Origin: a virus
Direction: 5' to 3' (one strand)
DNA: 22,278 nucleotides
IMG/VR virus record: IMGVR_UViG_3300038361_000087
Coordinates: 1-22,278 of that record
The position numbers and the translations under genes are program-made. The notes under the pieces are model-generated. The model had not been told where the DNA came from, searched no databases, and saw only the letters and a program-made list of their open reading frames with translations. Shown one piece after another: positions 3,167-21,426 of the stretch. The first letter of the stretch is position 1, and each line of letters opens with the position of its first letter.

Positions 3167-3317
3167 TATTCTTTTCCTTATATTTTTTTAAATCTATCCA
3201 ATATTGAGGATCAAGCTCTTTCGGTAGATGGTGTATCTTATGTAAAAGCGGTAAATGGCATATCAGGCATGTTACATCACCCGATTCTCTATATCTATGA
3301 GTTTTTACAACTAGCAT
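3159..3317 (-). CDS. Very small Cys/His-rich protein
   Basis: A 52-residue protein starting MLVVKTHRYR with CLICHLPLLHKIHHL at about residues 17-31. The CxxC pair followed by several histidines could bind zinc as a single knuckle. Its ATG overlaps the TAA of the GIY-YIG fusion gene as TAATG, and it has a good ribosome binding site (AAGGAAAAAG). It ends in TAG inside the start of the next small gene. The function is unknown. Confidence 0.45.
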   Translation of the reverse strand: MLVVKTHRYRESGDVTCLICHLPLLHKIHHLPKELDPQYWIDLKKYKEKNND

Positions 3318-6248: not shown

Positions 6249-7412
6249 CTATTTAATATTTGCGAGTTTTTGGAAACGTTCTTTCAATTCCTGACCTTCG
6301 GTTAAGATATTCTCATTCTTAGGTTTGGTTGATCGAACAGGCTTGGAACTTGAGCTCCGTACCTTATTGTTTCGTTTGTTTTCAGATAGTTGTGATTTAG
6401 GTTTTCTAGTGACACGTGCACCAAATGATTCTGCCAATGTTGAATATACCAACTTGACCTCACGAATATTTTTTGCTCGGTCGAAAGTCTCAACCACTTT
6501 AAATTTCTTACTATTGTCCAGTTCAAAGGAACGGAACAGTTTGTTGGAATAAAGTAATTTTGCGTTAAGCAGGTTAACTTCATTCAATTTGTCACGTAAG
6601 TACTTGACCACTTCACGGTGCTCAGTAAGCTCAGCCTGTAGGGTTTCTACCTGTTCATTAGTATCTTCTTCTGTTTCTTCCTCAGTAAGCTGATTAAGAA
6701 GTTCCTGAAGGTCGATATCTTCATCGAATTCTTCTTCTTCGTCCTCATCTTCAAATTCATCAACTTCTTTCAGTTTAGCCTTACCGACTGTACCGATTCC
6801 AGATGTTTGATTTGCTTTACCAGGTTGTTTGTTGTCAGATTTACCAATGTCTGAAGATACATCATTTTCATCAAGTTCGTCTTCATCGTCCTCAATGTCC
6901 ATATCCATTTCTTCTTCATCTTCGTATTCTTCATCGATTTCAGATTCTAGTTCACGAATTACTGCTTCCAAGTCCAAGTCATCCTCGTCCTCTTCTTCAA
7001 ATTCATCACTATCACCAAATTCGTCGTCTGCGTCAAAATCTTCAGATTCGTCGAATTCTTCTTCATCGTCTTCAAGTTCGGGTGCTTCTTCAGCGTCAAA
7101 TTCATCTTCGCCCTCAAATTCATCACCGTCTACTTCGATATCTTCAATCTCGCCCTCTTCGGGTTCGACTGCAACATCTTCATCTTCAAAGTCGTCGTCG
7201 GCTTCATCAAATGATTCCTCATCGTCAAATGATTCCTCATCTTCAAATTCGTCTTCGTCTTCAAAGTCATCAACTTCAGCTTGAATTTTCTTAGCTAACA
7301 TTGATTGAATACGTGGTTGAAATGCCTCTTCTAGAGCTATACGAGCATTAGCTAGTGCGGTTTCCCTTACTGCTTTTGCATCTGCAATAGCGTTTTTTAA
7401 AAGATCATCCAT
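6249..7412 (-). CDS. 22: Prohead scaffold/core protein (gp22 position)
   Basis: A 387-residue protein immediately before the capsid gene, as in T4 gene 22. It opens with a helical segment (AVRETALANARIALEEAFQPRIQSM in two runs, about residues 14-40) that I associate with the scaffolds of marine T4-like phages. Residues about 48-180 are an extreme Asp/Glu-rich stretch with short repeats, and another acidic patch lies near 218-255. The C-terminal half is coiled-coil-like (LQAELTEHREVVKYLRDKL) and ends basic. LTE/G near residue 372 is a possible protease site. It ends in TAG, and that TAG overlaps the AGGAG ribosome binding site of the capsid gene. It acts as the internal core on which the prohead assembles and is normally degraded by the protease. 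Confidence 0.82.
   Translation of the reverse strand: MDDLLKNAIADAKAVRETALANARIALEEAFQPRIQSMLAKKIQAEVDDFEDEDEFEDEESFDDEESFDEADDDFEDEDVAVEPEEGEIEDIEVDGDEFEGEDEFDAEEAPELEDDEEEFDESEDFDADDEFGDSDEFEEEDEDDLDLEAVIRELESEIDEEYEDEEEMDMDIEDDEDELDENDVSSDIGKSDNKQPGKANQTSGIGTVGKAKLKEVDEFEDEDEEEEFDEDIDLQELLNQLTEEETEEDTNEQVETLQAELTEHREVVKYLRDKLNEVNLLNAKLLYSNKLFRSFELDNSKKFKVVETFDRAKNIREVKLVYSTLAESFGARVTRKPKSQLSENKRNNKVRSSSSKPVRSTKPKNENILTEGQELKERFQKLANIK
7204..7239 (-). repeat. 18-base tandem repeat in the acidic scaffold region
   Basis: Two adjacent 18-base units differing at one position encode the repeated acidic hexapeptide (DEESFD, DEESFD). It lies in the Asp/Glu-rich part of the scaffold gene and suggests that the acidic stretch grows and shrinks by slippage. 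Confidence 0.7.
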
Positions 7413-7567: not shown

Positions 7568-7729
7568 TTATTTTCATTTTTTATATTTTTTCTTTAACAA
7601 TTTTTCTATAAAATTTTCCACTTCTTCCCACAATTCCTGTTCAACTTTTATTAGATCAGCCTTTGTTACCACATCGCTTTCAGTTAAAAGTTCTTCCCTT
7701 ATCATTTGTCGTAATTCTGATTTTTTCAT
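7568..7729 (-). CDS. Tagged putative internal head protein, 53 aa
   Basis: The smallest member of the tagged set. It starts MKKSELRQMIREELLTE/SD, where LTE/S fits the gp21-type site, leaving a 36-residue charged helix as cargo (LIKVEQELWEEVENFIEKL, then a Lys-rich end). The last codons are K-TGA-K-TAA, so Trp is the penultimate residue if TGA is sense. If TGA were a stop the protein would lose only two residues, so this gene alone does not test the code. It begins one base after the TAA of the preceding tagged gene. A basic, helical peptide released inside the head could bind DNA, but that is inference. Confidence 0.68.
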
Positions 7730-7730
7730 A

Positions 7731-7961
7731 TTATTCCCCAAGATCGCTCTTTATATCTTCGACTTCATCAATTCACTTTTCCGTAATCTTGTTCAATCTA
7801 TTATGTAGTTTCTTATTTTTTGCAATATTAAGTAAATAAGCATTTAAATTTGTCATACCCTTAAAAACAATTTCACTATAATGTTCAAAATCCTTACCAG
7901 ATTTCTCATTTAATGCTTGAATTTCTTCTCTAATTATTTGTCGTAGTTCTGATTTTTTCAT
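7731..7961 (-). CDS. Tagged putative internal head protein, 76 aa
   Basis: It starts with the shared tag MKKSELRQIIREEIQALNE, followed by a cargo of about 57 helical residues I do not recognise (SGKDFEHYSEIVFKGM, LLNIAKNKKLHNRLNK). Codon 63 is TGA (7775-7773); reading through it adds 14 residues (W-IDEVEDIKSDLGE) and brings the stop to TAA at 7733-7731, one base before the next tagged ATG. The ATG at 7961 overlaps the upstream TAA as TAATG. An upstream TTG frame extension is not needed. Expected path: targeted to the prohead and cut after LNE. Confidence 0.72.
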
Positions 7962-8512
7962 TAGTCTCATTGCCTTCCGCCAGCTCTCAAATATTTTTCG
8001 AAATCTCCGAGTTTAGAATCGGGTATTATTCCGCCCTTAATATTTAAAGTTACACGAATGACATATTGTTTATTGTGATTTTGTGCCAGAGCGGTGACTT
8101 TATCTCCCGAAGCACTAACAAATCTATATGGTTTATCTTCAAACCAAAAATCGTTGCCCTTTTTTAAATCCTTCACTTTTCTATCTTCATTTATCTTGCC
8201 CTCTTTGACAATTTTGAATACAGATTCGTCTTTTAGGAAGTGATCGTATACTACGAATTCACCTCTGCCACTGGGATTCATTACTACTAGTCCCTGTTGT
8301 GATGGATGTAATGCTTTTGATGTTCTGCCCAATATGGTCAGCTTCTGACCTTTTTTGAAATTCTTTTTACCGAATTTACCACCCTGAGTTACTACCAGAT
8401 ACCCATGATTGTCCTGTTTTGCAAATGCTTGGCGTAGGAAGTCGGCTTTTCTATCTTCTTGCAAGCTCTGAATTTCTTCTCTTATGATCTGACGTAATTC
8501 TGATTTTTTCAT
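7961..8512 (-). CDS. Tagged putative internal head protein, 183 aa
   Basis: It starts MKKSELRQIIREEIQSLQE/D, tag plus a possible site. The cargo looks like two beta-rich modules (GYLVVTQGGKFGKKNF, KGQKLTILGRTSKALHP; then KGNDFWFEDKPYRFVSAS) separated by KINE/DRKVKDLKK, which repeats both the site and the following D-R-K of the first junction, so the precursor may be cut twice. Codon 182 is TGA (7969-7967): reading through it gives GGRQ-W-D and a TAA that forms TAATG with the next gene, a neat junction that supports TGA as sense. The modules resemble small SH3/KOW-type barrels, but I cannot assign a family. Confidence 0.72.
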
Positions 8513-8513
8513 A

Positions 8514-9860
8514 TTATCCCTTTTTGACTGCTTTAATGAAATTTATTAATACTTTGGCAATTTCCTTCTTTTTACCCGATTCGACCGCTTTAGTTAAATC
8601 GTCGTGAGCCTGTATTGCTTTTTGTTTCAAAGGTCCTGATACTTTCGTTTTTACAGCTTTTTCAACCTGTTTGTCGGCCATTTTCATTTTGGAATCTGGC
8701 ACTTTACCTGCGGCGAATTTTTTAAATTGTTGGATCGGATTGGTGTCTTCAGTTAGTCCTTCATCGGTTGTCATTTGCCCATCGTATTCTCCCATTGAAA
8801 CTATGGGACCCATATATGCAAATCCCGCTCCAAATGCAACCAATACCCATCCTATCAATTCCCATAACCCAGATGGGCGAATGCCAGCCAAATCTGGTAC
8901 TTGGCTTAGAATGCTTCCACCGATTATTATACTGACAAAACCACCAATGGTCATTTTGGCGGGGAAATTTAATTTTTCATCCAATTCGGTTGCACGTGCG
9001 GCTCTGACCTTACCCATGTCCATTTTTTCATTTGTACTCTTATTGGATATTGCAAAGTTATAAACAAATAGTCTCAAATATTCACGGGTTATTTTACCAC
9101 GCCTTAGTCCTGGGAAAAACCACTTTTCAACCTTTGGACTTTTCATAAATATACCTTGGACAACCTTATACCGCTTGGATTTAGTTGCTTTGCTCATGCC
9201 ATCTTCATATGCATTTGCATAACTTAATATAGCTCTTTTGAGTTCATCAAATCCACTGCCATTTGGAATTCCTTTAAACATCTTAACAGCATTGGCTTTG
9301 ATATACTTTTCAATGGTGTGTTGTTCCATGCCCTTTTCTATGAATTTTTTGAAATCGGCAAATGCACCCTCATTGATAGTGAGCTCTATTTCTTTTAATT
9401 CATTTTTCTTTTGAAGTTCATTCCAATACTTTTTCAGACCTTTCATAATGATACCGAGTGATAATTCCTTGCCACCTGGAATTGTCCATTTGACAGGAAA
9501 TGGGTAGCCACCTCTGGTTTTCTTATTTCCTTTGTCTTTTAATATAGGTCTAATTTTGCCAAGTTCTGGCTTTTTAAGATCACCAATTTTTCACGATCAA
9601 TTACTAGTATGTACACCTTTGCCAAGGCCACTTTTAATATGAGCCTTTTCAATTACCAATCTTAACCCAGAAGTTTTGGTATTGAAGAAAATCCAAGCGT
9701 TTGTAGCATCTGAATCATATTCTCACTGCCAGTATGAACGATTTGTAGCTACTGGTTTTTCATTGTTACTTATATATTTTGTATGATCACCGTATCCAGC
9801 CGCCTCATTTAGAGCCTGTATTTCTTCCCTGATTATTTGGAGTAGCTCAGATTTTTTCAT
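8514..9860 (-). CDS. Tagged membrane protein with three in-frame TGA codons
   Basis: A 448-residue reading frame from the tagged ATG at 9860 (MKKSELLQIIREEIQALNE/A) to the TAA at 8514, open only if TGA is sense at codons 46, 88 and 90. The frame stays the same across all three, so this is not a frameshifted remnant. Residues about 20-138 form an unrecognised domain (WIFFNTKTSGLRLVIEKAH). A second site, TINE/GAFADF, lies at residue 164. The C-terminal half has a helical region and two hydrophobic segments at about 303-321 (MTIGGFVSIIIGGSILSQV) and 332-354 (LWELIGWVLVAFGAGFAYM), so the product probably inserts into a membrane. As cargo it could act in the host envelope during DNA entry; that is inference. 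Confidence 0.72.
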
Positions 9861-10147
9861 TATTTTTTGAATCCAAATTTCTTCAATACTTTTTTAACCT
9901 CGGAATCATTGGGGACATTCCCATCAATTGCACCGTAGTCATATAACCACATTGAATTGCGGCCACCCTGAAAATCAAATCTGGTTGCATTACCTTCACC
10001 TTCAACATAATTCCAATCATATGCACGTTCCATTTGATCCAGTGCGTCATGAAAGTTACCTTTAAGGGTTTTCTTAGGTTCCCAGCCAGCTTCATTAATT
10101 TTCTTAATTTCTTCCCGTATAATTTGTCGTAGTTCTGATTTTTTCAT
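9860..10147 (-). CDS. Tagged putative internal head protein, 95 aa
   Basis: It starts MKKSELRQIIREEIKKINE/AG, a good gp21-type site. The cargo of about 76 residues reads as helix then strands (NFHDALDQMERAYDWNYVEG, TRFDFQGGRNSMWLYDYG) and ends in a Lys-rich helix. Its pattern (G-W-x-P, a helix, then Asp/Gly-rich strands) resembles the cargo of the gene at 12019-12240, so the two may be distant paralogs; the similarity is weak. Both ends are TAATG overlaps with neighbouring tagged genes, and Trp is encoded only by TGG. Confidence 0.72.
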   Translation of the reverse strand: MKKSELRQIIREEIKKINEAGWEPKKTLKGNFHDALDQMERAYDWNYVEGEGNATRFDFQGGRNSMWLYDYGAIDGNVPNDSEVKKVLKKFGFKK

Positions 10148-10434
10148 TATTCATCCTTTAAGTGGTGCTTAATACCATCAATCATGTTATATTTAAACTT
10201 GACTTGATCAGTATCCCAGAATCATCTGGTAGATTTCTTTAGCGTGCCATTAACATACGCATAAATAGCTTTGATTAACTTATCATTGGAATCACCAGAC
10301 TTAACTTTTCCGGAATTAACTATCGCCTTTGACCATTGATCAACCGACGATCCTTTTATGGGATTTCCCTGAATACCTTCATTTAATGTCCGAATTTCTT
10401 CTTTTATGATTTGTCGTAGTTCTGATTTTTTCAT
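10147..10434 (-). CDS. Tagged putative internal head protein, 95 aa, with TGA
   Basis: It starts MKKSELRQIIKEEIRTLNE/GI. The cargo has a helical first half (SSVDQWSKAIVNSGKV, DKLIKAIYAYVNGTLKKS). Codon 71 is TGA (10224-10222); with TGA as Trp the protein continues R-W-FWDTDQVKFKYNMIDG and ends at a TAA that overlaps the next ATG as TAATG. Stopping at TGA would instead leave a 75-base untranslated gap in an otherwise gapless operon. I do not recognise the cargo. Confidence 0.72.
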
Positions 10435-10769
10435 TATTTACTAGCCTTTACATATTCTTTATAAAAATCTGATTTTTTAGTTTCTGAGGCATTCATTTCT
10501 GAGTGTCCGGGATATATATCTTCATATGCACTAACTATGGCTTGATAATATTTCCCCTTAACATTTATACCATACTCTTTAGGGTGCATCATATAATCCT
10601 CAAGATATGCACCAAATTGTATAGGTGACAATGTGCTGTCACTTAAATTCTTTAAATGTTTAGCCGCGATTTTCGGTTTCACTAGTGTTTCAACCGCATC
10701 CGCATACTTATTTTCAGTTAATTTCTGAATTTCTTCTCTAATAATTTGACGCAGTTCTGATTTTTTCAT
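10434..10769 (-). CDS. Tagged putative internal head protein, 111 aa
   Basis: It starts MKKSELRQIIREEIQKLTE/NK. The cargo of about 92 residues is helical (DAVETLVKPKIAAKHLKNLS, QFGAYLEDYMMHPKEYG, YYQAIVSAYEDIYPG) and contains no Trp. I do not recognise it. AGGAA lies about eight bases upstream of the ATG and partly overlaps the TAG of the gene before. The TAA overlaps the next tagged ATG as TAATG. Confidence 0.72.
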   Translation of the reverse strand: MKKSELRQIIREEIQKLTENKYADAVETLVKPKIAAKHLKNLSDSTLSPIQFGAYLEDYMMHPKEYGINVKGKYYQAIVSAYEDIYPGHSEMNASETKKSDFYKEYVKASK

Positions 10770-10778
10770 GATGTTTTC

Positions 10779-11027
10779 CTATTTTAATCTTTTCAAATGT
10801 GCTTCCATGTGTTCCAAGTCATTCAATATTCTATCAATCCATACTTTCAAAACTTTGCCTGATGTCATATCTTCCAAATCACCATCTCCCCCCGAATATT
10901 CATGGGCGAGCTCGTAGTGGAGGTCTTCCATATCGGAAAACATTTTTTGGACTGTTTTGACATGGGGATTTTTAGCTTCTTTTAAAAGTTCTTCTTTTAT
11001 AATTTGTCGCAGTTCTGATTTTTTCAT
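10779..11027 (-). CDS. Tagged putative internal head protein, 82 aa
   Basis: It carries the short form of the tag, MKKSELRQIIKEELLKE/AK, two residues shorter than the usual form but with the same Leu-x-Glu/Ala end. The cargo is a helical, His- and Asp-rich stretch (VQKMFSDMEDLHYELAHEYSG, VWIDRILNDLEHMEAHL) that could form a helical hairpin. No family is recognised. AAAGGA precedes the ATG by about nine bases, right after the upstream TAA. It ends in TAG. Confidence 0.72.
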   Translation of the reverse strand: MKKSELRQIIKEELLKEAKNPHVKTVQKMFSDMEDLHYELAHEYSGGDGDLEDMTSGKVLKVWIDRILNDLEHMEAHLKRLK

Positions 11028-11038
11028 CTGTATATCCT

Positions 11039-11410
11039 TTAGTTGTTGACCGCTTTGATAAACATATCAAATAATTTGGCTTCAGGTGAACCTTTAGCTG
11101 GTTTATCATTACCAGCCCAATGACCCCGATCCCAATATACCTCATCTTTGGTTTTAATATCACGTATCCACAATTTAGATACTCGGCCATCTTTATACCC
11201 AAATCCACTTGGGTCTTCAAATACCACCGCACTTATTTCATATTTTCCATCTTTGGATTTTCCAACTACCCAAGGATTCATGCCACTCTGTTTAATCTTA
11301 TATACCATGAATTTCTTCAAAGGTGAAAGATCACCAGTAGATACTTCGGAACCCCTCTTTTCTTTTAGAATTTCCTCGCGGATGATTTTACGCAATTCCG
11401 ATTTTTTCAT
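11039..11410 (-). CDS. Tagged putative internal head protein, 123 aa
   Basis: It starts MKKSELRKIIREEILKE/KR, the short form of the tag. The cargo of about 106 residues is beta-rich and Trp-rich (MNPWVVGKSKDGKYEISAVV, VSKLWIRDIKTKDEVYWD) and ends AKGSPEAKLFDMFIKAV. That last segment faintly resembles KGSPNRKLYFDGLWK in the tagged gene at 16698-17183. AGGAG lies eight bases before the ATG. All four Trp codons are TGG. It looks like a compact folded domain rather than a simple basic peptide, and I cannot name it. Confidence 0.72.
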   Translation of the reverse strand: MKKSELRKIIREEILKEKRGSEVSTGDLSPLKKFMVYKIKQSGMNPWVVGKSKDGKYEISAVVFEDPSGFGYKDGRVSKLWIRDIKTKDEVYWDRGHWAGNDKPAKGSPEAKLFDMFIKAVNN

Positions 11411-11419
11411 TGTTATCTC

Positions 11420-11602
11420 CTATTTAGAGTCTTCTACTGATACCTTTCGATATTCAGTTACAAGTTTCTTGATCTCGCCCAAGTGTTTCCTGGCCCTGCC
11501 TGCTGCGGCTTTATTACCCTTTTCAACGAATTTTTCGTGATTGGCTTGAAAGTCAGCGAATAGTTTTGTAATTTGTTCGTATAGTTCTGTTGTCTTTTCC
11601 AT
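11420..11602 (-). CDS. Histone H1-like protein, Hc1 type
   Basis: A 60-residue, lysine-rich helical protein without the MKKSEL tag. Residues about 23-54 (EKFVEKGNKAAAGRARKHL, then EIKKLVTEYRKVSVE) match the signature of the Hc1 family of bacterial histone H1-like proteins, in which a G-N-K-A-A-x-R-x-R-K core is followed by a helix ending in Y-R-K. Hc1 proteins bind and compact DNA in Chlamydia and related forms occur in other bacteria. Here it may bind the phage or host genome; its place inside the tagged block suggests a head-related or takeover role, but it lacks a visible targeting sequence. It ends in TAG just before the next gene's AGGAG. Confidence 0.75.
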   Translation of the reverse strand: MEKTTELYEQITKLFADFQANHEKFVEKGNKAAAGRARKHLGEIKKLVTEYRKVSVEDSK

Positions 11603-11625
11603 TTTGTGTATCCTTTATTTTTATA

Positions 11626-12003
11626 TTATTTTAAGAAATCGTCTGATACTATATACATACTACCAGCCATTCCACTTTTTAAACTGTTCATATCAACTCC
11701 AGCATCTTCGGCGTTAATAAATTTTTCTATTAGTTTCTGTATCTCTGGGAGTGCTTTTTTTGCTTGTGCAAATACACGTTCCCGTTCTTGGGCGGTCATT
11801 CCCACTATAAATCCTGGGCCGCGTTCTTGATCAACTACCACGGATAAAATATTTTCACCAGTAATATATGCTCGCATATTTTTTTCTAGCTTATATTTTT
11901 TGGCCACTTTATTGACAATCCCTTGGATTTTACCAGAAACTCTAGCTTCAGTTAATTTCTGAATTTCTTCCCTGATTATTTGACGCAATTCTGATTTTTT
12001 CAT
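11626..12003 (-). CDS. Tagged putative internal head protein, 125 aa
   Basis: It starts MKKSELRQIIREEIQKLTE/AR. The cargo begins with a basic helix (GKIQGIVNKVAKKYKLEK), then strands (RAYITGENILSVVVDQE, GFIVGMTA) and a long helix (ERERVFAQAKKALPEIQKLI), an alpha/beta layout I cannot assign. The ATG at 12003 is preferred over a TTG two codons upstream because it aligns with the other tags. It follows the TAA of the preceding tagged gene by 15 bases and has no Trp codon. Confidence 0.72.
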   Translation of the reverse strand: MKKSELRQIIREEIQKLTEARVSGKIQGIVNKVAKKYKLEKNMRAYITGENILSVVVDQERGPGFIVGMTAQERERVFAQAKKALPEIQKLIEKFINAEDAGVDMNSLKSGMAGSMYIVSDDFLK

Positions 12004-12018
12004 ATCCAATGCCCTTTA

Positions 12019-12240
12019 TTAGTGTATTTTTATTGTTACTTCATATTCAACGTCACCATCATAAATCACAATCATGCCCGTACCGTTCGACACATCATAA
12101 TCCATTTGGGTGCCATTGCCCCATATTTTTTTAGCCGTTTTAACTATACCATTATGGAGTTTGTCAGCATTTGGAGTCCATTTGCCCTCTTGGATAGTCA
12201 TTTCTTCTCTAATAATTTGTCGCAATTCTGATTTTTTCAT
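12019..12240 (-). CDS. Tagged putative internal head protein, 73 aa
   Basis: It starts MKKSELRQIIREEMTIQE/GK, a one-residue-shorter tag ending in Ile-x-Glu/Gly. The cargo of 55 residues is a helix then beta strands (LHNGIVKTAKKIWGNG, GTGMIVIYDGDVEYEVTIK), a small alpha-beta-beta unit. Its opening G-K-W-T-P resembles G-W-E-P in the gene at 9860-10147. It ends in TAA. Both Trp codons are TGG. Confidence 0.7.
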   Translation of the reverse strand: MKKSELRQIIREEMTIQEGKWTPNADKLHNGIVKTAKKIWGNGTQMDYDVSNGTGMIVIYDGDVEYEVTIKIH

Positions 12241-12249
12241 ATTATGCTC

Positions 12250-12492
12250 CTAAGCGTAATTCAGTATGGACTCAATTTGACGCAGTGCTAGTGTTAATTT
12301 TTTAACATCCTCTGGGCTCAATTTGGCGTCTTTTAATTTTTTCATAATCTTTTTGGACTGATCAACCAAGCCTCTATAATTGGCTTCATTGATTTCATCC
12401 CTGACCATTTCACGAATTACAGCCTCGCTGAATGGGATTTCCCCTTCAATTAGGTTTGAAAGTTTTAGAATCTTTTTAGCTGGTTTTCCCAT
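12250..12492 (-). CDS. Head-block protein with degenerate tag, 80 aa
   Basis: From the ATG at 12492 (GGAGA about eight bases upstream) the protein is 80 residues. It lacks MKKSEL at the start, but residues about 21-36 (FSEAVIREMVRDEINE/AN) look like a diverged tag: an amphipathic helix with the I-R-E-x-x-x-x-E-I pattern ending in INE/A. The remainder is a helical hairpin (YRGLVDQSKKIMKKLKDA, PEDVKKLTLALRQIESIL). The start overlaps the end of the bS21 gene by 17 bases, so the two are coupled. Longer starts upstream would run across most of the bS21 gene and are rejected. It ends in TAG. Confidence 0.66.
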   Translation of the reverse strand: MGKPAKKILKLSNLIEGEIPFSEAVIREMVRDEINEANYRGLVDQSKKIMKKLKDAKLSPEDVKKLTLALRQIESILNYA

Positions 12493-12682
12493 TTTGTGTC
12501 TCCAATGTACGGTATTTCTCTCGTATTTTTGCCTTTGCTTTCCGTTCCCTACGGACCTCAGACGGTTTTTTATACTGTTCATTTTCCCTTAGTTCCACGA
12601 ACAATCTTGTATCTTTAATTTTTCTCTTCATTATCTGAAGTGCTTTTTCGATGTTTCCATCTATGACCTTTACTTTAATCAT
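12476..12682 (-). CDS. rpsU: Phage-encoded ribosomal protein bS21
   Basis: A 68-residue basic protein that is clearly bS21: IKVKVIDGNIEKALQIMKRK, then an ELRENEQYKKPSEVRRER segment (the E-x-Y-x-K-P-S-x-x-R-R core of the family) and a Lys/Arg-rich tail. bS21 sits on the 30S subunit near the anti-Shine-Dalgarno end of 16S rRNA and helps initiation. Phage copies are known from marine phages and are thought to join host ribosomes and favour phage mRNA. It lies inside the head gene block, with AGAGG upstream, and overlaps the next gene. It has no capsid tag and no Trp. The length is close to that of bacterial bS21 (about 65-70 residues). Confidence 0.92.
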   Translation of the reverse strand: MIKVKVIDGNIEKALQIMKRKIKDTRLFVELRENEQYKKPSEVRRERKAKAKIREKYRTLETQNGKTS

Positions 12683-12703
12683 GTAAACCTCTTTTGTTTT
12701 TTG

Positions 12704-13513
12704 TTATTTTATTCTTCGTTTGAGCTCTTTTTTGACCTCTTTAGCCACTGGGCCTGTCCAAGACCTTGCATTGGATAGAAAGTATGCTACCACTGATCTT
12801 CCAGAATCCTGATAATAATCATCAGTAATTTTCTCGAGACTAAACATAGCATCCAAATACGGCTTTGCGGCGTAATTTACTTTTTTCCAATCACTTGAAA
12901 TGACATCAGCCAGTTCATCAATTGACATATTTTTATAATCCGCATTTTCTGTGAGTATTTCACTTAAAATGCTTCTAATTTCTGTGCGCACCATTTCTTC
13001 AAGTTTATTTGATTTATCACGTTGTTCCACAAATTTAGTGGCGTACTTTTGTTCCCGTACATATGATGCATTGGGATTCTTTTTCCTGAGTGATTTTGGC
13101 ATTTCGGCAATTTCCTCTTCATTTAATCCGTGATTGTTCACAAAGTAGTTAATTCTGCGTGCGTCAATTGGATAGGTTTTTCTCCACTTATTTTCTTCAA
13201 GTCCTCTGAACCATTTGTGTATTTCTTTTACAGTAGTTCGTTTTGGTTTTGTATCCATATCTTCACTCCATGCTGCTTTTAAATCATTTTTATAATTTTG
13301 AAATGTGGCTGGTGTATAGTCACCATAGCTCAGTTGATATTTTTTTTTATTGACAATCGATCTAACGTCTATTGAACCTGGGTCTTTAAGTAATACCTTA
13401 AAAGCACCCGATATTACTTTTTTATTGACTTTAAAACGCCTCATTAAATCCTTATAGGCACTATGTTTGATCTTTACCAAATCACCTATATATGCTTTTT
13501 CGTCTAATTTCAT
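12704..13513 (-). CDS. Head-block protein with internal tag-like segment, 269 aa
   Basis: A 269-residue basic protein. Residues 1-165 are an unrecognised helical region (GDLVKIKHSAYKDLMRRFKV, RTTVKEIHKWFRGLEENKW). Residues about 171-189 (LEEMVRTEIRSILSEILTE/N) resemble the shared tag placed internally, ending in LTE. The remaining 80 residues form a second domain (MSIDELADVISSDWKKV, VVAYFLSNARSWTGP) with a basic end. It may therefore be two proteins joined by a cleavable tag, or a core protein split by the protease. It starts a few bases after the TAA of the preceding gene. All five Trp codons are TGG. Confidence 0.66.
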   Translation of the reverse strand: MKLDEKAYIGDLVKIKHSAYKDLMRRFKVNKKVISGAFKVLLKDPGSIDVRSIVNKKKYQLSYGDYTPATFQNYKNDLKAAWSEDMDTKPKRTTVKEIHKWFRGLEENKWRKTYPIDARRINYFVNNHGLNEEEIAEMPKSLRKKNPNASYVREQKYATKFVEQRDKSNKLEEMVRTEIRSILSEILTENADYKNMSIDELADVISSDWKKVNYAAKPYLDAMFSLEKITDDYYQDSGRSVVAYFLSNARSWTGPVAKEVKKELKRRIK

Positions 13514-13517
13514 TTAT

Positions 13518-14543
13518 TTAATATCTCCGGCTAGCGTCTTTTAATACTTTTTTCATTGTTTTTAGATAGAATTTCAAATCTTCATTGGCACCTTTTGTAG
13601 TATATTTAACAAAATTCGGTTTAAATTTATCGTCATAATCACCACCATCGTCTATCACATTAATTGGCAATCCCGATCCATCTCCATCCCAAAATAGGGT
13701 AGCATATATTAATGTATCATCGCTGTCACGAGACCATTCCCATGCACCAGACATTTGATCATATCCAAATTCCCATTCGCCAATTTTCTTACCTTTTAAT
13801 TTTCGCTCAATGTGATCTTGAGATGCCAATTCTCTATCTTCATCCGTTAAATCGTCATCACTGCCCATTGAGAATTTACTGGCTTCATGGAGTTTACCTT
13901 CAGTCTTAGCCTGATAGTTCTTATCCACATAATTGTAGAATTTTTTCTTTTTCTCATCTTCCAATTCGTCTGGAGAAGAAATACCAAATTTCTGCATAGC
14001 ACTTCTGAAGAATTCTTCGTATTTGCCATCGTTCTCTTTGATTTTCTTGCCTATCGCTCTAACGTCGGTATCACTATTTTCAGAAACTTCTGCCTCATTG
14101 ATGTTATAATAACGCCCTAAAATGTGACCCATGTCCTCATATAGCGACTCCATACGCTGTTGCACTGAAGCGGCATCTCCTGCAATCTTAGTGAACTCCT
14201 TTGCATGGTTGCCTAATGTTTTCATGTTCTTATTGATCGTTATCTTATCGAATGCTTCATCTACATTATTAAGAGAATGATGTTTTGCAATCTCACACAT
14301 CTTAGCCAGTTTCTGAGCAGTTTCTCTGATATCATTTTCACGATAAATCATTTTACCAATCTCATTATACCCAGCAACTTCCTCTTGGAATTCCTTAAGA
14401 TCGTATTTGGGACCGTCTTCTTCAGCTACAAATTCTTCGGCAATATTGCTCAATTTATAGTGATGAAAGTTGTTCGTTGGATTAACAAAACCACCGACTA
14501 TTGATAGCATGTGTTCGTCTAATTTTTGTTTTTTCTTTGCCAT
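13518..14543 (-). CDS. Head-block protein with two predicted protease sites, 341 aa
   Basis: A 341-residue protein in three parts separated by gp21-type sites. Residues 1-150 are helical (DEHMLSIVGGFVNPTNNFHH, YKLSNIAEEFV, ASVQQRMESLYEDMGHILG) and end NINE/A at 150. Residues 151-220 contain KYEEFFRSAMQKFGISSPDE and KKKFYNYVDKNY, a module I have seen in marine phage head-region proteins but cannot name, and end KLHE/A at 220. The last 120 residues are an acidic beta-rich domain (GEWEFGYDQMSGAWEWS, TLIYATLFWDGDGSG). The MKKSEL tag is absent. It ends in TAA. It could be a core component or a precursor of three mature pieces. Confidence 0.68.
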   Translation of the reverse strand: MAKKKQKLDEHMLSIVGGFVNPTNNFHHYKLSNIAEEFVAEEDGPKYDLKEFQEEVAGYNEIGKMIYRENDIRETAQKLAKMCEIAKHHSLNNVDEAFDKITINKNMKTLGNHAKEFTKIAGDAASVQQRMESLYEDMGHILGRYYNINEAEVSENSDTDVRAIGKKIKENDGKYEEFFRSAMQKFGISSPDELEDEKKKKFYNYVDKNYQAKTEGKLHEASKFSMGSDDDLTDEDRELASQDHIERKLKGKKIGEWEFGYDQMSGAWEWSRDSDDTLIYATLFWDGDGSGLPINVIDDGGDYDDKFKPNFVKYTTKGANEDLKFYLKTMKKVLKDASRRY

Positions 14544-14553
14544 TATTTGTCTC

Positions 14554-14796
14554 CTATTTACTTAAAATCTTTTTTATAGCATCAAATTGTTTTTTTGTTA
14601 TTGATAGATGTTTTGATTCATTTTCAGTGCCACCGATTTTGAGGTTCATTTTATATTTCCAATTATGACCATTTTCAGCCTTTTCCAGTTCACCAACTTC
14701 ATAATTAGCCTCATTTAAAGTATCTTCTTCAATGTATTCCTCTAGTCTCCAGTCTCTCCACTTTTTATTCATTTCCATCATATCTTTATTTTTCAT
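14554..14796 (-). CDS. Small head-block protein with predicted protease site, 80 aa
   Basis: An 80-residue protein. Its N-terminus (MKNKDMMEMNKKWRDWRLEE) is not the standard tag, but it plays the same layout: a charged helix of 29 residues ending DTLNE/AN, a good gp21-type site. The cargo is about 50 residues, strands then helix (GHNWKYKMNLKIGG, LSITKKQFDAIKKILS). AGGAG lies about eight bases before the ATG, overlapping the upstream TAG. It ends in TAG. This may be a heavily diverged or independent targeting peptide. Confidence 0.66.
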   Translation of the reverse strand: MKNKDMMEMNKKWRDWRLEEYIEEDTLNEANYEVGELEKAENGHNWKYKMNLKIGGTENESKHLSITKKQFDAIKKILSK

Positions 14797-14805
14797 TATT
14801 GTCTC

Positions 14806-15822
14806 CTATGACATATCACCGACGGTGCCCATTTGAGCTCGTCGCAAGTGAAGGTTTGCTGGTAAATCGATTTCATTCTTTTGTCCATATTTATCACCGA
14901 CGTTAACGCCATGATTCATAAATATACTAATTTTAGATTCGGGGCTTTTTTTCTGCTCAGCTTTAGCCTTTTTAGTTGAATCCTTTTTTGAGCCTTTAAA
15001 TTTTACAATGCCATCCTTCGTATATCCATACGCGGTTGATTTCTTCATCACCTCTTTTAATTCGCTTCTAACAAGATTTCTAACCATTTGTTCTTCAGTA
15101 GATTCTTTTAATCGTTTAGTAATTTTGGCCTTATCTGCATTAGATACCATATTACCAAGAGATACCATAAATTTTCCCAAATCGGATTCCATATGTTTTG
15201 CACCTTTTGGTTTTTGATAATAATACCTAATCCCGAAATTTTGAGTGCTGATGCCCTTATTATCCTTGCCAACTGTAATATCGCCTATTTTAAATTCCGT
15301 TTTTACTTCATTCATTGTAATTTCTTCATTCGGGCCTGCTTTTTTTCTCTTACTACCCTTTACTCGGCTACCCTCTGCTCGACCTCTATTTTTACTCTGA
15401 TCCTCATATCCAGCAATTTTGCCGTTCTTATGTGAAGCATCCTTACCATCACCATTGCCGTATGTACCATTATCTCTATTGTACTTATTCAGCTCGGCTC
15501 TGTATTTTTTCTTCTCTGGTGAGGACTGAAATTTTTTGTAATAATAGCTTTTTCGTGCTTGGTATTCCTTTGCGTGATCCCTCTTTTTCTCAGCTTCATT
15601 AATCGATTCAATTTCTTTTCTGATTAGTTGTCTAATACTTTCTTCCTTCTTTACTTTGGTAGGAAGGTCCTTAGTATCAGTTGAAGCAAAATCGTCAGCG
15701 TCCTCATCGGAAATCTTCCCCGCGATATCTTTGACTTTTTGGTCAACCTTACTGTTCTTGCCATCTTTGTATGCTTTGACAAGAGCGAATAATTTTTGTT
15801 GTTGTTTACTAACCGATGGCAT
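14806..15822 (-). CDS. DUF3008-like N-terminus fused to tag-containing protein, 338 aa
   Basis: Residues 1-58 match the small DUF3008 family (MPSVSKQQQKLFALVKAYKD, then KVKDIAGKISDEDADDFAST and LPTKV), usually a free-standing protein. Residues 59-76 (KKEESIRQLIRKEIESINE/A) are a clear internal variant of the tag. Residues 100-160 are basic and contain GNGDGKDASHKNGKIAGYED with downstream NR pairs, a pattern loosely like an HNH-type unit. Another tag-like helix (EEQMVRNLVRSELKEVM) lies at about 243-259. The protein thus looks assembled from modules separated by protease sites. It has no Trp codon, ends in TAG and starts after TTTTTCC-free AT-rich sequence with AAGGAAAA upstream. Confidence 0.7.
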   Translation of the reverse strand: MPSVSKQQQKLFALVKAYKDGKNSKVDQKVKDIAGKISDEDADDFASTDTKDLPTKVKKEESIRQLIRKEIESINEAEKKRDHAKEYQARKSYYYKKFQSSPEKKKYRAELNKYNRDNGTYGNGDGKDASHKNGKIAGYEDQSKNRGRAEGSRVKGSKRKKAGPNEEITMNEVKTEFKIGDITVGKDNKGISTQNFGIRYYYQKPKGAKHMESDLGKFMVSLGNMVSNADKAKITKRLKESTEEQMVRNLVRSELKEVMKKSTAYGYTKDGIVKFKGSKKDSTKKAKAEQKKSPESKISIFMNHGVNVGDKYGQKNEIDLPANLHLRRAQMGTVGDMS

Positions 15823-15832
15823 CTATTTTTCC

Positions 15833-16384
15833 TTAGGCTTTAATTAATTTAGCGGCTTTTTTCAATATCGATATACCATTTTCAATGATATTTGTACCCC
15901 TATCAAACTGTGAATATGCTTTATTGAACCAATCTTCACTTGAATTCTCATTCAAAATTACTTCTAAATTACCAAAAGCTTTATCCAATTCATCTTCAAT
16001 TTCTTCAAGTTCTTCCAGCCAATACTGCCCAGATGTCTTAGCTTCATTGACATTTTTCTTGCCATGTGCATTAATGGTATCCTCTAGAGTAGGATTTGGT
16101 TCTCCAAAACTTCTTTCGAACGCATGTTCACTCAATAAGTCTGCTAGTTTTGTTCTTTTTTTCATTGTATTTTCTCCCACTCGGATAAATTCTTTGCCCA
16201 AGCCTTTGGTTAGGTTTTCTTTTTCTATGTAATTTTTAACAGCGGCTTCATCTTTTTCTGAGACGTATACCCATGTAATGAATGCTGGTGATTTTTCCAC
16301 CGTTGCATCCAGTTTATTATCTTTTATAAATTTTTCTATTTTTTTTGTGGCTGTAAAATATATTGTATATAGCTTCTTTTTCAT
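15833..16384 (-). CDS. Head-block protein with possible nested start, 183 aa
   Basis: A 183-residue protein from the ATG at 16384, which follows the TAA of the tagged gene upstream by one base. Residues 1-70 form an alpha/beta unit (LYTIYFTATKKIEKFIKD, AFITWVYVSEKDEAAVKN). An in-frame ATG at 16165 has GGGAGA eight bases upstream and would give a 110-residue protein, MKKRTKLADLLSEHAFERSF..., with the MKK opening and NVNE/A at about its residue 41, like a tagged precursor. Either two proteins are made from one frame or two genes have fused. The acidic C-terminal half is helical. No family is recognised. Confidence 0.64.
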   Translation of the reverse strand: MKKKLYTIYFTATKKIEKFIKDNKLDATVEKSPAFITWVYVSEKDEAAVKNYIEKENLTKGLGKEFIRVGENTMKKRTKLADLLSEHAFERSFGEPNPTLEDTINAHGKKNVNEAKTSGQYWLEELEEIEDELDKAFGNLEVILNENSSEDWFNKAYSQFDRGTNIIENGISILKKAAKLIKA

Positions 16385-16385
16385 A

Positions 16386-16694
16386 TTACAATCCCGCCCA
16401 TTTTTTGAGAAGATCGTTTGTAAGTTTTTTATCTTTGCTGGATAATTTCTTGTATATTTTTTTCCAACCGGCCGATCCACGTTTATATTCCTCATTATCA
16501 TTATTCATATTAAAGAAGTATCCATGCAAATCTATGGCAAAACCCTTTGCAGATTTCAATTCAATATAATCTTCATCTTTACTATCTGGAGGTTCAGGCA
16601 TTCCAAAATCACTTCACTTTAGGTTACTGTATGAAGCTTCATTCAAAGCTTGAATTTCTTCTCTAATAAGTTGTCTTAGTTCTGATTTTTTCAT
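16386..16694 (-). CDS. Tagged putative internal head protein, 102 aa, with TGA
   Basis: It starts MKKSELRQLIREEIQALNE/AS. Codon 27 is TGA (16616-16614) in NLK-TGA-SDFG, so the tag joins its cargo only if TGA is sense; otherwise a 26-residue peptide would remain. The cargo has strands (DYIELKSAKGFAIDLHGYFF) and a basic helical end (SAGWKKIYKKLSSKDKKL). Both other Trp codons are TGG, and the stop is TAA. I do not recognise the cargo, which might be a small nucleic-acid-binding protein given its basic end. Confidence 0.72.
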
Positions 16695-16697
16695 TAT

Positions 16698-17183
16698 TTA
16701 ACTCCCCTTTGCATCCATAAGTTTCATTATTTTAGACGCATAGCTTTTTAAGTTTTGTCCTTTTTTTACTGCATCTGAAATTTTCCACAACCCATCAAAA
16801 TACAGTTTACGATTTGGCGAACCTTTTGGCTCTTTAAAAAAGCTTAAATATTTCTTTCTATATTCTTTGGCAAATTCTTCAAAATCTTTCCATACACCAA
16901 ATTTATCAACAATTAACTTAGAGTACATTCCAGTATCACTAATCATTGAACCAATTAATTTAGCAAGGATATTACCTTTAACATCGCCACTAATACCACC
17001 CCCACCGTTCCGTTCTTCATAAGAATATGATTTATGTTTTTTATCTATATCGGACTGATACACTTTAAACTTTTCTTTACCGCCCCGTGAGGTTGCTTGG
17101 AACAGCGCATCATAATCATCGGATAGCTCGTTTAACCGTTGAATTTCTTCTCTAATAATTTGTCTTAATTCTGATTTTTTCAT
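16698..17183 (-). CDS. Tagged putative internal head protein, 161 aa
   Basis: The first tagged gene after the prohead protease, starting MKKSELRQIIREEIQRLNE/LS. The cargo has a glycine-rich segment (ERNGGGGISGDVKGN, about residues 57-71) and helices (FEEFAKEYRKKYLSFFKE, LWKISDAVKKGQNLKSYASK) and is strongly basic, suiting DNA association. KGSPNRKLYFDGLWK near residue 118 echoes KGSPEAKLFDMF in the gene at 11039-11410. It ends in TAA. The fold is unknown to me. Confidence 0.72.
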   Translation of the reverse strand: MKKSELRQIIREEIQRLNELSDDYDALFQATSRGGKEKFKVYQSDIDKKHKSYSYEERNGGGGISGDVKGNILAKLIGSMISDTGMYSKLIVDKFGVWKDFEEFAKEYRKKYLSFFKEPKGSPNRKLYFDGLWKISDAVKKGQNLKSYASKIMKLMDAKGS

Positions 17184-17185
17184 TC

Positions 17186-17791
17186 TTATCCCCTGATAAT
17201 ATCGTTAATAATTGATTCTACCTTGCACCACTTGCCACACGTTCTTGTATATGGATCAACCGATTCATTTACTGGATACATAAATGCACCATGTGTAGAT
17301 GGATTTGAAACGAAATCGAATGCAATTAATTCAAAATCGTCCTGTACTTCCTGTGCCGATGATTTGGCTTCAGATTGTTGTACTGAACCTAAACCTCTGG
17401 ATGAAATACCCAGTTTGATTCCAGCTTGGAATAATTCTTTTAAAATGTTACCAGAAGGTGTACCCAGTACTTCAATAGTACCAACTAAATTATCACCTTC
17501 CCAATGCATTTCCACAATATTGTGAGATACATTTTGTAGGTTAACAACGGAGCTATCTGGGTGATCCAGTTCCCCCATTGCACGTTTTTGTTTGATGAAA
17601 TTATCAGCATATTTGCCCGATTCTCTCATTAAAATTTTCTTCGGATAGATTCTACCATTCTGATTCTCAGCATCAGCCCTTTGCAATACACCCTGTACAA
17701 TTACCTTACCATTATTTTTAACGGATTCGGCTATTTGAATGGGTGAAACATCGAATAATAGGTAGTCGACCAGTAATTGTCTATTCATCAT
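17186..17791 (-). CDS. 21: Prohead core protease (T4 gp21-like)
   Basis: A 201-residue serine protease of the T4 prohead type (peptidase family S80). Visible marks are GRIYPKKI (about 46-53), GELDHP with the catalytic-type His at 77, GISSRGLGS with the likely nucleophile Ser at 130 or 131, and LIAFDFVSNPS around residue 159. Enzymes of this type cleave scaffold, capsid and internal proteins after Leu/Ile-x-Glu inside the prohead and then destroy themselves; PVNE/S at residue 176 could be its own C-terminal cut. It lies at the head of the tagged gene block. The first of two ATG codons overlaps the upstream TAA as TAATG. It ends in TAA. Confidence 0.9.
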   Translation of the reverse strand: MMNRQLLVDYLLFDVSPIQIAESVKNNGKVIVQGVLQRADAENQNGRIYPKKILMRESGKYADNFIKQKRAMGELDHPDSSVVNLQNVSHNIVEMHWEGDNLVGTIEVLGTPSGNILKELFQAGIKLGISSRGLGSVQQSEAKSSAQEVQDDFELIAFDFVSNPSTHGAFMYPVNESVDPYTRTCGKWCKVESIINDIIRG

Positions 17792-18579
17792 TATCTCCCT
17801 TTAACTCCAGTATCTTTTTTGAAATATTTCAATACCCCATCCAAGCCCTTAGATATTACAGCAATTTTTGAGCTGGAAGATTTAGAATAATCAGCTGAGT
17901 CTTTTGCAACCGAGCTAATTAATCAAGAGGCATGATTTAATTTACCCAAATCACCTTCAGCCGCTTTAACTTTACCAGGTGCCATATCTTCATTTACCGA
18001 TTCCATAAAGTCATATTCTTTACTTTCATATGCACCCTCAAAATCTTCAGCGTAATCTTTAGCCAATTCCATTCTATCTTTTTTAGGAAACATGCCACGA
18101 ACTGTATCGTCATTTGAACCGTGATCTTTAACATACCCTTTAGCTCCATCGTCTACCAAATACATAAAAAGCTTTGGTGCTAGATGTCGGTCATATTTAC
18201 CAGATTTCTTTTTCCGAGATAAATTTTTCAATATCGGAAGAAATCGTTGTTTGTATAATTGTTGGTTATTATCAATATAGATTTTCAATTCATCCATTTC
18301 CATTGATAATTTTTCAGTCAATGGTCGGCGATTTTTCATATCTTCGTATAAATTTTTGATGTATTTGTTTGTAATATCAGCCTTTTTATAGTCAAATACC
18401 TCTGGGTCTTTATGACCTTGGGCACGACCAGTTTTTTCCACTTTCCCATTTTTCCCATTTCTGAAAGCATTGGGAGTTTTAGGTGGGCCCTCACCACCGT
18501 CAATATTACCAGTCACATTAGCTTCTGATATTTCTTGCTCGATGATACTACGGATGTAATTTCTTAACGCGTCACTCAT
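17791..18579 (-). CDS. Head-region protein with degenerate tag and TGA, 262 aa
   Basis: It starts MSDALRNYIRSIIEQEISE/AN, a diverged version of the tag with the same helix pattern and an Ile-x-Glu/Ala end, so it is probably processed. The middle (YKQRFLPILKNLSRKKKSG, HLAPKLFMYLVDDGAKGYV, MELAKDYAEDFEGAYE) matches in style a head-region family common in large phages but without an assigned function. Codon 219 is TGA (17925-17923); reading through adds 44 residues and ends at a TAA that overlaps the protease start as TAATG. Stopping at TGA would leave a 131-base gap before the protease. Confidence 0.74.
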
Positions 18580-19457
18580 TATTTATCTCCCTTAAGGGTT
18601 TTCTTAATCTCTTTTACCAGTTGGTAATATCTCATCATTTTGACAACCTGATCATCCTTAACCAATTTACCCTTTGTCAAATGTCCAATCTGATTAATCG
18701 CTTCTCGCAATTTGATAGTTGTGATTTTATCATCAACATTGGGCAATAATGTTTTCAATTCAGATGTCACTTTTTTAACTTCCGTATTGATAAATTCCCT
18801 CAAGTTGTTGGTATTTGATATATTGTTGATATATTCTTTTAATAGTCGCTTTTGAGCAGCATTCAATGAAGAATATCGCTCGTTGAACTTGTCCACTAAA
18901 ATTTGATATGATAGCAATCGCAAGTCTTTTTCTTGTTTCTTGTATTCACTAACAATTCTTTTTTCTTTATTTTCCTTGGAAATTGGTGATCTTACAATAT
19001 GTTCCAATATAGTAAATCTACTATCAACCATCTCAGTCGGATCAAATGTGTCCGCTGATGTTTCCGCTAGAAATAATTTATAAATAGAAGCGTACACTTT
19101 GTAGCTAGGAATTCTAGCCGCGAAAAATTCATCTACGTTATAATGTTCTTTAATCTCTTTTATGAGATTATATTTTTCACCGCGTAAATTTGAATTCTTA
19201 ATTTTCTGCCGTGACGTTACCACGGCATCAATAAGTTTATCAGCTTTTGCTTCAATGTTATAATTTTCACCTATTAAAATTTTATACAACTGTTGTTCCT
19301 TGCCCAAATCTGTATTCTCGTTAAAATACTTCTTAAGAATATCTATGGCAGCGGAATTTTTCCTGTTGTTAAGAACATCCACGGTTATTTGTCTGGACAA
19401 TAGTTCAAACAGTATCCCTGTATTCTTAATTTTAGAATGTCGCAAATTTTTACTCAT
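18579..19457 (-). CDS. Head-region protein between portal and protease, 292 aa
   Basis: A 292-residue, almost wholly helical, basic protein (NLRHSKIKNTGILFELLSRQ, AAIDILKKYFNENTDL, EYKKQEKDLRLLSYQILVD). T4 keeps the small core genes 67 and 68 in this position, but I see no similarity to them and do not assign a name. No tag or clear gp21-type site is visible near the start. It has no Trp codon. It lies 75 bases after the portal gene, with TTGGAGTA upstream of its ATG, and its TAA overlaps the next start as TAATG. Confidence 0.7.
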   Translation of the reverse strand: MSKNLRHSKIKNTGILFELLSRQITVDVLNNRKNSAAIDILKKYFNENTDLGKEQQLYKILIGENYNIEAKADKLIDAVVTSRQKIKNSNLRGEKYNLIKEIKEHYNVDEFFAARIPSYKVYASIYKLFLAETSADTFDPTEMVDSRFTILEHIVRSPISKENKEKRIVSEYKKQEKDLRLLSYQILVDKFNERYSSLNAAQKRLLKEYINNISNTNNLREFINTEVKKVTSELKTLLPNVDDKITTIKLREAINQIGHLTKGKLVKDDQVVKMMRYYQLVKEIKKTLKGDK

Positions 19458-19533: not shown

Positions 19534-21426
19534 CTATTCAGCGTCTGCATTTTCAGAAATATCGTCTTTATATTCTTTTTCAATGTCTTCAGTTTCGTTT
19601 AATATTTTTTGATTTTTTTCGACAAATTTTTCACCTAATCTTTTCTTAAGTGAAGCATAATGTGCAAGAGATAGGGTTTTTCCGTATTTCGGACTGGCGC
19701 TTGCATTCTTTTTCATATCGTGTTTTCCTATCGGATCACGCCCAGTTACTGAGCCATCCTTACCATATTTGGGACCTTCTTTTGGACGACCTCCGCCCTC
19801 AAAACCACCTTTGGGAACTTCTTGATCTTCCCCATAATCACTATAATTTTCCTCTTGTGCGCCACCGGGTACAGGGGGTTTTTCACCACCACCTTCTTCA
19901 CCGCCAGCATCCATCATTGCACCTTGAGTACCGACTGCTTCACCACTTTTCAATGGATCATTGCCTTCGTCCTCAATTTGCTGATAACGGAATTTACGCT
20001 TTTTATCCTTGATCAATTCAAGTCTAATTTGTTCCTGTTCAGCTTTACCGAATTTGAAAATATTATCATATATCCAACTGGTAGGAGCCAAGTCATCTTG
20101 TAATAGTGAACTAGCCGCTGATATTTTATTATTCAATAATTCAAGTCTTTCTTCTTCAAACATAATGGATGAATTAGTTAAATTCAAATCAAAATTAAGC
20201 ATTTTTTCATCTCTATGACCCTGTGCGTACAAGTGTACCACACCGATTTTCATAAGTACATCTACTATTACCCTTTGAATTCGTTCAATCGTTTTAGCGA
20301 AACGAACATCTTCAGCGGCCAATGTGGATTTACTATTTAGTGCCTCATCATATCCCAAGAATGCACGAGGTACTTTCAACGCGGCCATCATTTTGTTTTT
20401 CAAGTATTCGATGTCATCAGTTGAATCATATTCCAATCCACCCAATGTATCAATTTCAGTTCCACTATCGCTCCCACGAACTGGAAGAAAGAAATCTTCT
20501 GTTAAATTTTGCATGTTATATTTAAGGTTATATTCCCCAGTAGTCTGATCGATAACTGGAGTCTTTTTCATTTTGGCAATAACCGATTTCATGAATGGTT
20601 CAACCTCATTTGGGGCAATATTACCAATGTCCAATTTGAAAATTCGTTTCTCTGGCGCACGCATGATTCTGTGAATCAACATAGCATCTTCCATTAATGT
20701 TAATTGTTTCCATACCTTACGGGCACCCTCAATCATGGATTTTCCATAGGGCAAGAAATTACTATCCGAGTGTAATCTGAAGTGTGCTACTTCAAAATCT
20801 TCTAACATCTCGGTATCATCGTTCCCCTTAATTCCATGACGGGTTTCACCTTCACCCAATTGAAATTTAACTTCATTTGGTCGAGCTGGATCTAATCCTT
20901 CAAGTCGAACCACGTCATATGCTGACATTGGTACAACATTATATATACCATAATTATCATCTATTTGTAGGTGTAAAAAGAAATCACCATATTTACACAT
21001 ATTTCTAACTCATGGCCACAAGTTGAATTCCACGTTCAAAATATCATAATACAAGTTATGCAATGTTTCTCTAATGGCTTCATCTTCAGCCGTGATTTCT
21101 ATTACATCACCATATTCAGATTTCATTGTGGATTCATCGGCATAAATATCCAATGCAGAAGAAAGGATAGCATCACTATCCATTTGTTCGTAATCTTTGA
21201 ATAATGCCATTCTCTGACCAGCTTGGTAGAACTGAATAGCACGACCAGTTGATCCACCCATTGTGGAATACAATCTGGTATATCTGTCCATAAAATTTCG
21301 ATTTACGGTCGATTGGACATTATCCGTGTCTATAACTTTTAATTTTCGGCCACCAATATTGCGAACAATAACAGTACCAGAAAATAATCTTTTTAAATTT
21401 TGTGCTAATTTACTTTCAGCCATCAT
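19534..21426 (-). CDS. 20: Portal vertex protein (T4 gp20-like), with in-frame TGA
   Basis: A 630-residue portal protein. Codon 139 is TGA (21012-21010) in NVEFNLWP-TGA-VRNMCKYGDFFL, a conserved segment of T4-type portals in which relatives carry Trp; both flanks are intact and in the same frame. Further portal marks are YSTMGGSTGRAIQFYQAGQR, LEDFEVAHFRLHSDSNFLPY, GKSMIEGARKVWKQLTLMED and ALKVPRAFLGYDEALNSKST. The last 130 residues are Gly/Pro-rich and charged, longer than in T4 gp20 (524 residues), with KILNE/T near the end as a possible protease site. It forms the dodecameric ring through which DNA enters the head. It follows the terminase gene after 18 bases and ends in TAG. Confidence 0.93.

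Follow-up and report, generated by a model that had tools for sequence, protein, structure and literature searches.

Why should thirteen neighbouring genes of one phage begin with almost the same residues and then continue into sequences that have nothing in common? This question is raised by a 22,278-base virus record (the whole stretch analysed, hereafter the window), which derives from an uncultured T4-like phage and carries a T4-type head module on its minus strand. In phage T4, the internal proteins are directed to the prohead core by leaders of 10-19 residues, which gp21 then cleaves off; the T4 head contains about 300 copies of each internal protein, many of which are ejected (PMC9026906). 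The T4 proteins Ip1-3 have only the leader in common, each of them inhibits a different GmrSD restriction system, and T4-related phages possess at least 10 internal proteins of this type (PMC12373910). We suggest that the window probably encodes a large and modular relative of this internal-protein/capsid-targeting-sequence system, the products of which would be enclosed in the head, cleaved by an S77-type protease and injected, with some of the genes organized as polyproteins. A preliminary description of the same DNA had proposed a modular loading system of this kind, and its interpretation is partly supported by the data presented here.

Head module, genetic code and the tagged genes

The tagged genes occupy a cassette of 9.6 kb between the protease and scaffold genes of a head module with the following features:

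21445-22230, minus strand: C-terminal part of the terminase
19534-21426, minus strand: portal
18579-19457, minus strand: protein of 292 residues without family match, in the head region between the portal and the core protein
17791-18579, minus strand: prohead-core-like protein of 262 residues (TGA read as Trp), its function assigned by position
17186-17791, minus strand: prohead protease, Peptidase_S77 (T4 gp21 type; PF03420, 2.6e-29; phrog_207, 2.7e-53)
6249-7412, minus strand: scaffold-like acidic protein in the gp22 position, kept in relatives, without family match
4622-6238, minus strand: major capsid protein of the Gp23 family, 538 residues (TGA read as Trp; PF07068, 5e-76)
3317-4504: protein that joins a GIY-YIG endonuclease domain to a second domain (phrog_4182), directly downstream of the capsid gene

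The Pfam matches to PF03420, PF07068 and PF07230 all lie above their cut-offs in the window; the match of the protease to Peptidase_S77 reaches 102.6 bits against a curated cut-off of 27, and this protein is presumed to be the processing enzyme of the tagged proteins. The preliminary description was right in linking the cassette to a T4-type prohead protease, but its assignment of the enzyme to S80 found no support in the searches made, in which Peptidase_S77 was the sole Pfam match. The adjoining core-like protein possesses a leader of its own (LRNYIRSIIEQEISE|ANVTG; the bar marks the predicted cut) and an inner VNE|D, and a search with the tag HMM did not show homology between this leader and the tag. 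At the position that corresponds to 18579-19457, Microcystis phage Mel-JY01 holds a gene with a similar N-terminus.

Under the standard genetic code, TGA codons interrupt the portal, the terminase and several tagged genes, so that several of the latter are truncated (26, 45 and 51 residues); reading TGA as Trp restores complete frames for the portal, the terminase, the capsid protein and several genes of the cassette, with TAA or TAG as the stop codon of every main gene. Alignments of the head genes argue for this reading in the window: at the TGA positions, the aligned relatives show 23 Trp in the portal, 17 Trp and 1 Tyr in the capsid protein, and 14 Trp, 3 Tyr and 2 Phe in the terminase. 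Recoding ranges from none to heavy among the relatives (e.g., G015, G017, G018, L091, L149, L150, L164), and a standard-code tRNA search found no suppressor tRNA for TGA in the relatives that were scanned. With TGA as Trp, the predicted mature tagged proteins comprise 36-429 residues, and it is only with this reading that the lengths of 36 to about 430 residues given in the preliminary description fit the sequence; its end coordinate 7568 agrees with this reading as well.

The cassette contains thirteen tagged genes, each starting at the higher of the two coordinates; three genes of the cassette that are without the tag are listed as well:

16698-17183, minus strand: tagged gene 1, 161 residues, tag ends RLNE|L
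16386-16694, minus strand: tagged gene 2, 102 residues (TGA read as Trp), tag ends ALNE|A
14554-14796, minus strand: tagless gene, N-terminal stretch ends LNE|A
12250-12582, minus strand: tagless gene, inner INE|A after a tag-like stretch
12019-12240, minus strand: tagged gene 3, 73 residues, tag ends TIQE|G; tagless relative in contig L131
11626-12003, minus strand: tagged gene 4, 125 residues, tag ends KLTE|A
11420-11602, minus strand: tagless Hc1 histone H1-like protein of 60 residues (PF07432, 5e-20)
11039-11410, minus strand: tagged gene 5, 123 residues, tag ends ILKE|K
10779-11027, minus strand: tagged gene 6, 82 residues, tag ends LLKE|A
10434-10769, minus strand: tagged gene 7, 111 residues, tag ends KLTE|N
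10147-10434, minus strand: tagged gene 8, 95 residues (TGA read as Trp), tag ends TLNE|G
9860-10147, minus strand: tagged gene 9, 95 residues, tag ends KINE|A
8514-9860, minus strand: tagged gene 10, 448 residues (TGA read as Trp)
7961-8512, minus strand: tagged gene 11, 183 residues, tag ends SLQE|D; inner INE|D
7731-7961, minus strand: tagged gene 12, 76 residues (TGA read as Trp), tag ends ALNE|K
7568-7729, minus strand: tagged gene 13, 53 residues (TGA read as Trp), tag ends LLTE|S

All thirteen minus-strand genes begin with MKKSELRQIIREEI or a close variant of it, soon followed by [LI]xE (13/13; the next residue is A, G or S in eight of them) and then by unrelated sequence. A search of the window with a single tagged N-terminus returned 13 places, with E values from 7e-37 to 0.006, and the window cargos have no mutual similarity, which confirms the earlier count of thirteen genes with unrelated remainders. 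Every one of these genes carries the pattern MKKSEL[RL]x[ILM]I[RK]EE[ILM]; the literal sequence MKKSELRQIIREEIQ, given previously as their common start, is not present in each. Tagged gene 2 belongs to a recurrent cargo family with relatives in L184, L164, L093, L177 and L185. In L009, a near-identical contig that shows no differences from the window in the protease and the first tagged genes, a 14th tagged gene (104-760, 218 residues) is located upstream of the terminase, outside the window. The tagless genes at 12250-12582 and 14554-14796 are possibly protease substrates as well, judging from their motifs. The Hc1 protein, which is kept in several relatives, could be a DNA-packing protein.

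Selection on the tag, its distribution and the predicted cut site

In a scan of viral contigs, 107 stretches matched a degenerate DNA pattern that covers tag residues 1-13; the reversed pattern had no match in 20 related tag contigs, in which the real pattern gives dozens. Over the 14 codons of the thirteen window tags, pS is 0.60, pN is 0.05 and pN/pS is 0.086, while the DNA directly upstream of the tags is 33% identical and the cargo DNA 29%, both near chance. Because synonymous sites have diverged, the amino acids are fixed and no DNA flank is shared, selection acts on the protein: the 14-codon tag is under purifying selection, and its copies are old ones held by amino-acid selection, not recent DNA duplicates.

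The tag was found neither in cultured phage records (tblastn with the 20-residue tag, which has limited sensitivity for so short a query), nor in 84,980 bacterial and archaeal genomes (exact pattern), nor in the literature searched. Its consensus does not seem to resemble the T4 leader. Two proteins of about 185 residues, in L117 (7697) and L152 (3294), have tag-like N-termini (MKRSELVKLIREVIKKEM, MKKTELIALIREVVKKEM) without LxE; the tag may derive from them or be related to them.

The statistics of the predicted cut site are based on a non-redundant set of 230 tagged proteins encoded by virus contigs. Between residues 13 and 27, 81% of them have [LI]xE and 88% [LIVMF]xE, compared with a background of 8-14% at residues 41-55; the Glu is found mainly at residue 17, 19 or 20, and it is followed by A, G or S in 42% versus 19%. 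As the pattern used in the search extended no further than residue 13, the enrichment of LxE was not selected for. About 12% of the tagged proteins are without LxE at the expected place. The predicted maturation site of the major capsid protein, QLIDE|ASKTG, has the same motif in 18/18 distinct sequences, with A, G or S as the next residue in 15 of these 18. Conservation of LxE in several registers, together with a next-residue preference that recurs in the capsid protein, supports the cleavable leader that was originally proposed.

Co-occurrence of tag and protease across virus contigs, which had been put forward as a check, was indeed observed. Of the 14 tag contigs that measure 40 kb or more, 11 contain Peptidase_S77, versus 2 of 18 random contigs of similar size (p 2e-4); among those of 74 kb or more, all nine tag contigs contain it, versus 2 of 10 random contigs (p 6e-4). 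Three tag contigs of 45-65 kb, which show neither an S77 protease nor a Gp23 or T4 portal gene, may be fragments. In the 14 contigs with a protease, all 79 tagged genes lie on the protease strand, at a median distance of 9 kb from the protease gene compared with 19 kb at random placement; only 16 of the 79, however, lie between protease and capsid gene in the relatives, the others being spread through the late/head region. The tagged genes thus belong to the late region and are not tied to one slot, so that their confinement between protease and scaffold, correctly described for all thirteen genes of the window, does not extend to the relatives.

Cargo diversity and module borders

The 192 cargos form 156 families (140 singletons), and the cargo set differs between close relatives. 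Among the 124 longer cargos there are few Pfam or PHROG matches, almost all of them to families of unknown function, in agreement with the earlier impression that the cargo families are mostly undescribed. One rare cargo with a recognizable enzyme domain is a tagged P-loop kinase/zeta-toxin-like protein (L187, 1748-2620). Matches in Pfam, PHROGs and PADLOC are all rare, and the weak PADLOC matches were dismissed as noise.

Cys is lacking from 93% of 190 cargos and likewise from most head proteins of the window, while most genes beyond the capsid gene hold several Cys, a comparison that is only indicative for other ORFs since the ORF sets include spurious frames. The cargos are small and have a median pI of 9.1 (60% above 8.5 and 22% below 6; comparison ORF sets 8.35 and 7.67); they are hence basic only on average, with a sizeable acidic minority. 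Structure prediction, which had also been advocated, gave a weak model for the cargo of the gene starting at 16694 (pLDDT 74), but no PDB match to it better than E 3; the model of the core protein is poor (pLDDT 56).

Cargo modules reappear tagless or as internal segments of other proteins. In 10 of 19 families, the homology of these relatives starts exactly after [LIVM]xE (0.5 expected, p 1.5e-11), and in 16 of 19 it starts within three residues of LxE (3.5 expected). This coincidence of module borders with LxE is the strongest new evidence. Inner LxE sites, which give several cargos a multi-module look, had been absent from the preliminary description.

Tagged gene 10 provides the most elaborate example. 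Its 448 residues consist of the tag, a first cargo, a module that begins at INE|GAFADF, a junction ATELDE| and a hydrophobic module; the INE|GAFADF module carries its own tag in contig G001 (L148). From this layout, the protein is likely to be a polyprotein; searches of Pfam and PHROGs at E 0.001 gave no match for it, and it is without recognizable effector domains. The module of the gene starting at 8512 follows a tag ending LQE|D in the window and a tag ending LDE|D in G005, and it lies behind an inner ALNE|D in G001; a search for further relatives of this cargo returned G001 only. Conversely, the cargo that follows the tag at LTE|GQVKIWKS in G001 is internal in G005, where it comes after GLTE|GQVKIWKS, and the C-terminal module of the core-like protein (17791-18579) is a tagged stand-alone protein in L096. 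Four single ORFs contain two complete tags (L093, 784-1311; L118, 5220-5669; L133, 1248-1802; L134, 11042-11731), as if two tagged genes had been fused. A homologue of a tagged cargo is also present in a cultured relative, Flavobacterium phage immuto, whose protease gene has as its neighbour a gene for 75 residues (QQO91881.1) with the predicted cut IQE|QGGYVEV.

Since the module borders are located at LxE, the termini of the mature proteins can probably be read from the protease motif, and several of the genes have the appearance of polyproteins. The data lean slightly towards the view that one tag would bring at least two different cargo modules into the prohead, where the prohead protease would separate them at LxE inside the capsid. 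If this is true, cargo genes would evolve via module swaps at the sites of protease cleavage, and a module that forms a tagged gene of its own in one phage could lie within a larger protein in another.

Proposed mechanism, alternatives and relation to known systems

In the mechanism that we envision, the leader of about 19 residues would serve as a capsid-targeting sequence, of which the front part, MKKSELRQIIREEI, is predicted to be helical (the models are weak) and would bind the prohead core or scaffold, by which unrelated small proteins would become enclosed as the shell forms. The S77 prohead protease would cut after [LI]xE and free the mature cargo inside the head, from which it would exit together with the DNA at infection. 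Some genes would be polyproteins in which a single tag is followed by several modules joined by further LxE, each to be cut free; we infer for the cargo a role in anti-defence or takeover.

The cargo could, however, represent core components and not injected effectors. The tagged proteins would then be parts of the prohead core or scaffold that are enclosed and cleaved, help to give the head its shape and are lost by expulsion or degradation no later than packaging. The conserved core-like protein beside the protease, with its own leader, its LxE and a C-terminal module that is tagged alone in L096, fits such a role, as does the cleavage of the T4 core proteins gp22, gp67 and gp68 by gp21 (PMC9026906, PMC5694885). 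We nevertheless regard this explanation as unlikely, given a cargo that is small, basic on average and so variable that 140 of 192 members are singletons, whereas core proteins are conserved in dozens of relatives. Far less probable is an uncleaved leader that acts as a docking helix onto another partner (tail, polymerase or membrane): the helix predicted for the front part and the leader-like N-termini without LxE on other phage proteins (e.g., L117:7697) are compatible with it, but it explains neither LxE at varying distances from the tag nor module borders at LxE. We give hardly any credence to the idea that the tag acts as DNA, as a site of recombination or gene capture by which cassettes spread, with the protein sequence as a by-product. 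Such a site would account for the swapping of cargo modules between phages and for the tag being the sole part common to the genes, but it is disfavoured by the pN/pS of 0.086 at a pS of 0.60, and the DNA beyond the tag has no shared flank.

The preferred reading, a relative of the T4 internal-protein system, builds on the likeness to T4 IPI-IPIII and Alt seen in the T4-type head genes and the S77 protease (PMC9026906; PMC12373910), in a short N-terminal leader common to unrelated small accessory proteins, and in a protease motif that ends in Glu. There are 13-14 tagged genes per phage here, in contrast to three Ips in T4; the cargo modules are also joined into apparent polyproteins, and one tag extends across a wide set of uncultured phages, some of which read TGA as Trp. 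Packaging and injection have been reported for T4, whereas we infer them here from sequence. In the giant phages phiKZ and SPN3US, too, a prohead protease strips N-terminal propeptides from head and ejection proteins, and the divergent paralogues gp53 and gp54 have identical N-terminal 15 residues; the propeptides of these phages are, however, mostly longer than 100 residues and have the motif A/S-x-E, and a large family of unrelated cargos with one tag is not described there (PMC5694885). The polyvalent proteins of phages and conjugative elements likewise combine several domains in one polypeptide and are thought to be delivered with the DNA, but they have recognizable enzyme domains, whereas the modules considered here are small, mostly domainless and split by prohead-protease motifs (PMC5512222).

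That unrelated packaged proteins can have one cleavable leader in common is already known from T4. What is new is the scale, with 13-14 genes in one phage and about 156 families over the contigs found; an apparent polyprotein organization with borders at protease sites; and a leader that is absent from the literature searched and occurs in uncultured phages, some of which use an altered genetic code. Phage-injected proteins are hard to recognize because they share no domains, and a tag of about 20 residues marks candidates for such proteins, a single scan yielding about 190 distinct cargos in 156 families, hardly any of which contain a recognized domain. Since the T4 equivalents block restriction enzymes, this list is one of candidate anti-defence or takeover proteins, and as the mature ends can be predicted exactly from the LxE border rule, the idea is directly testable.
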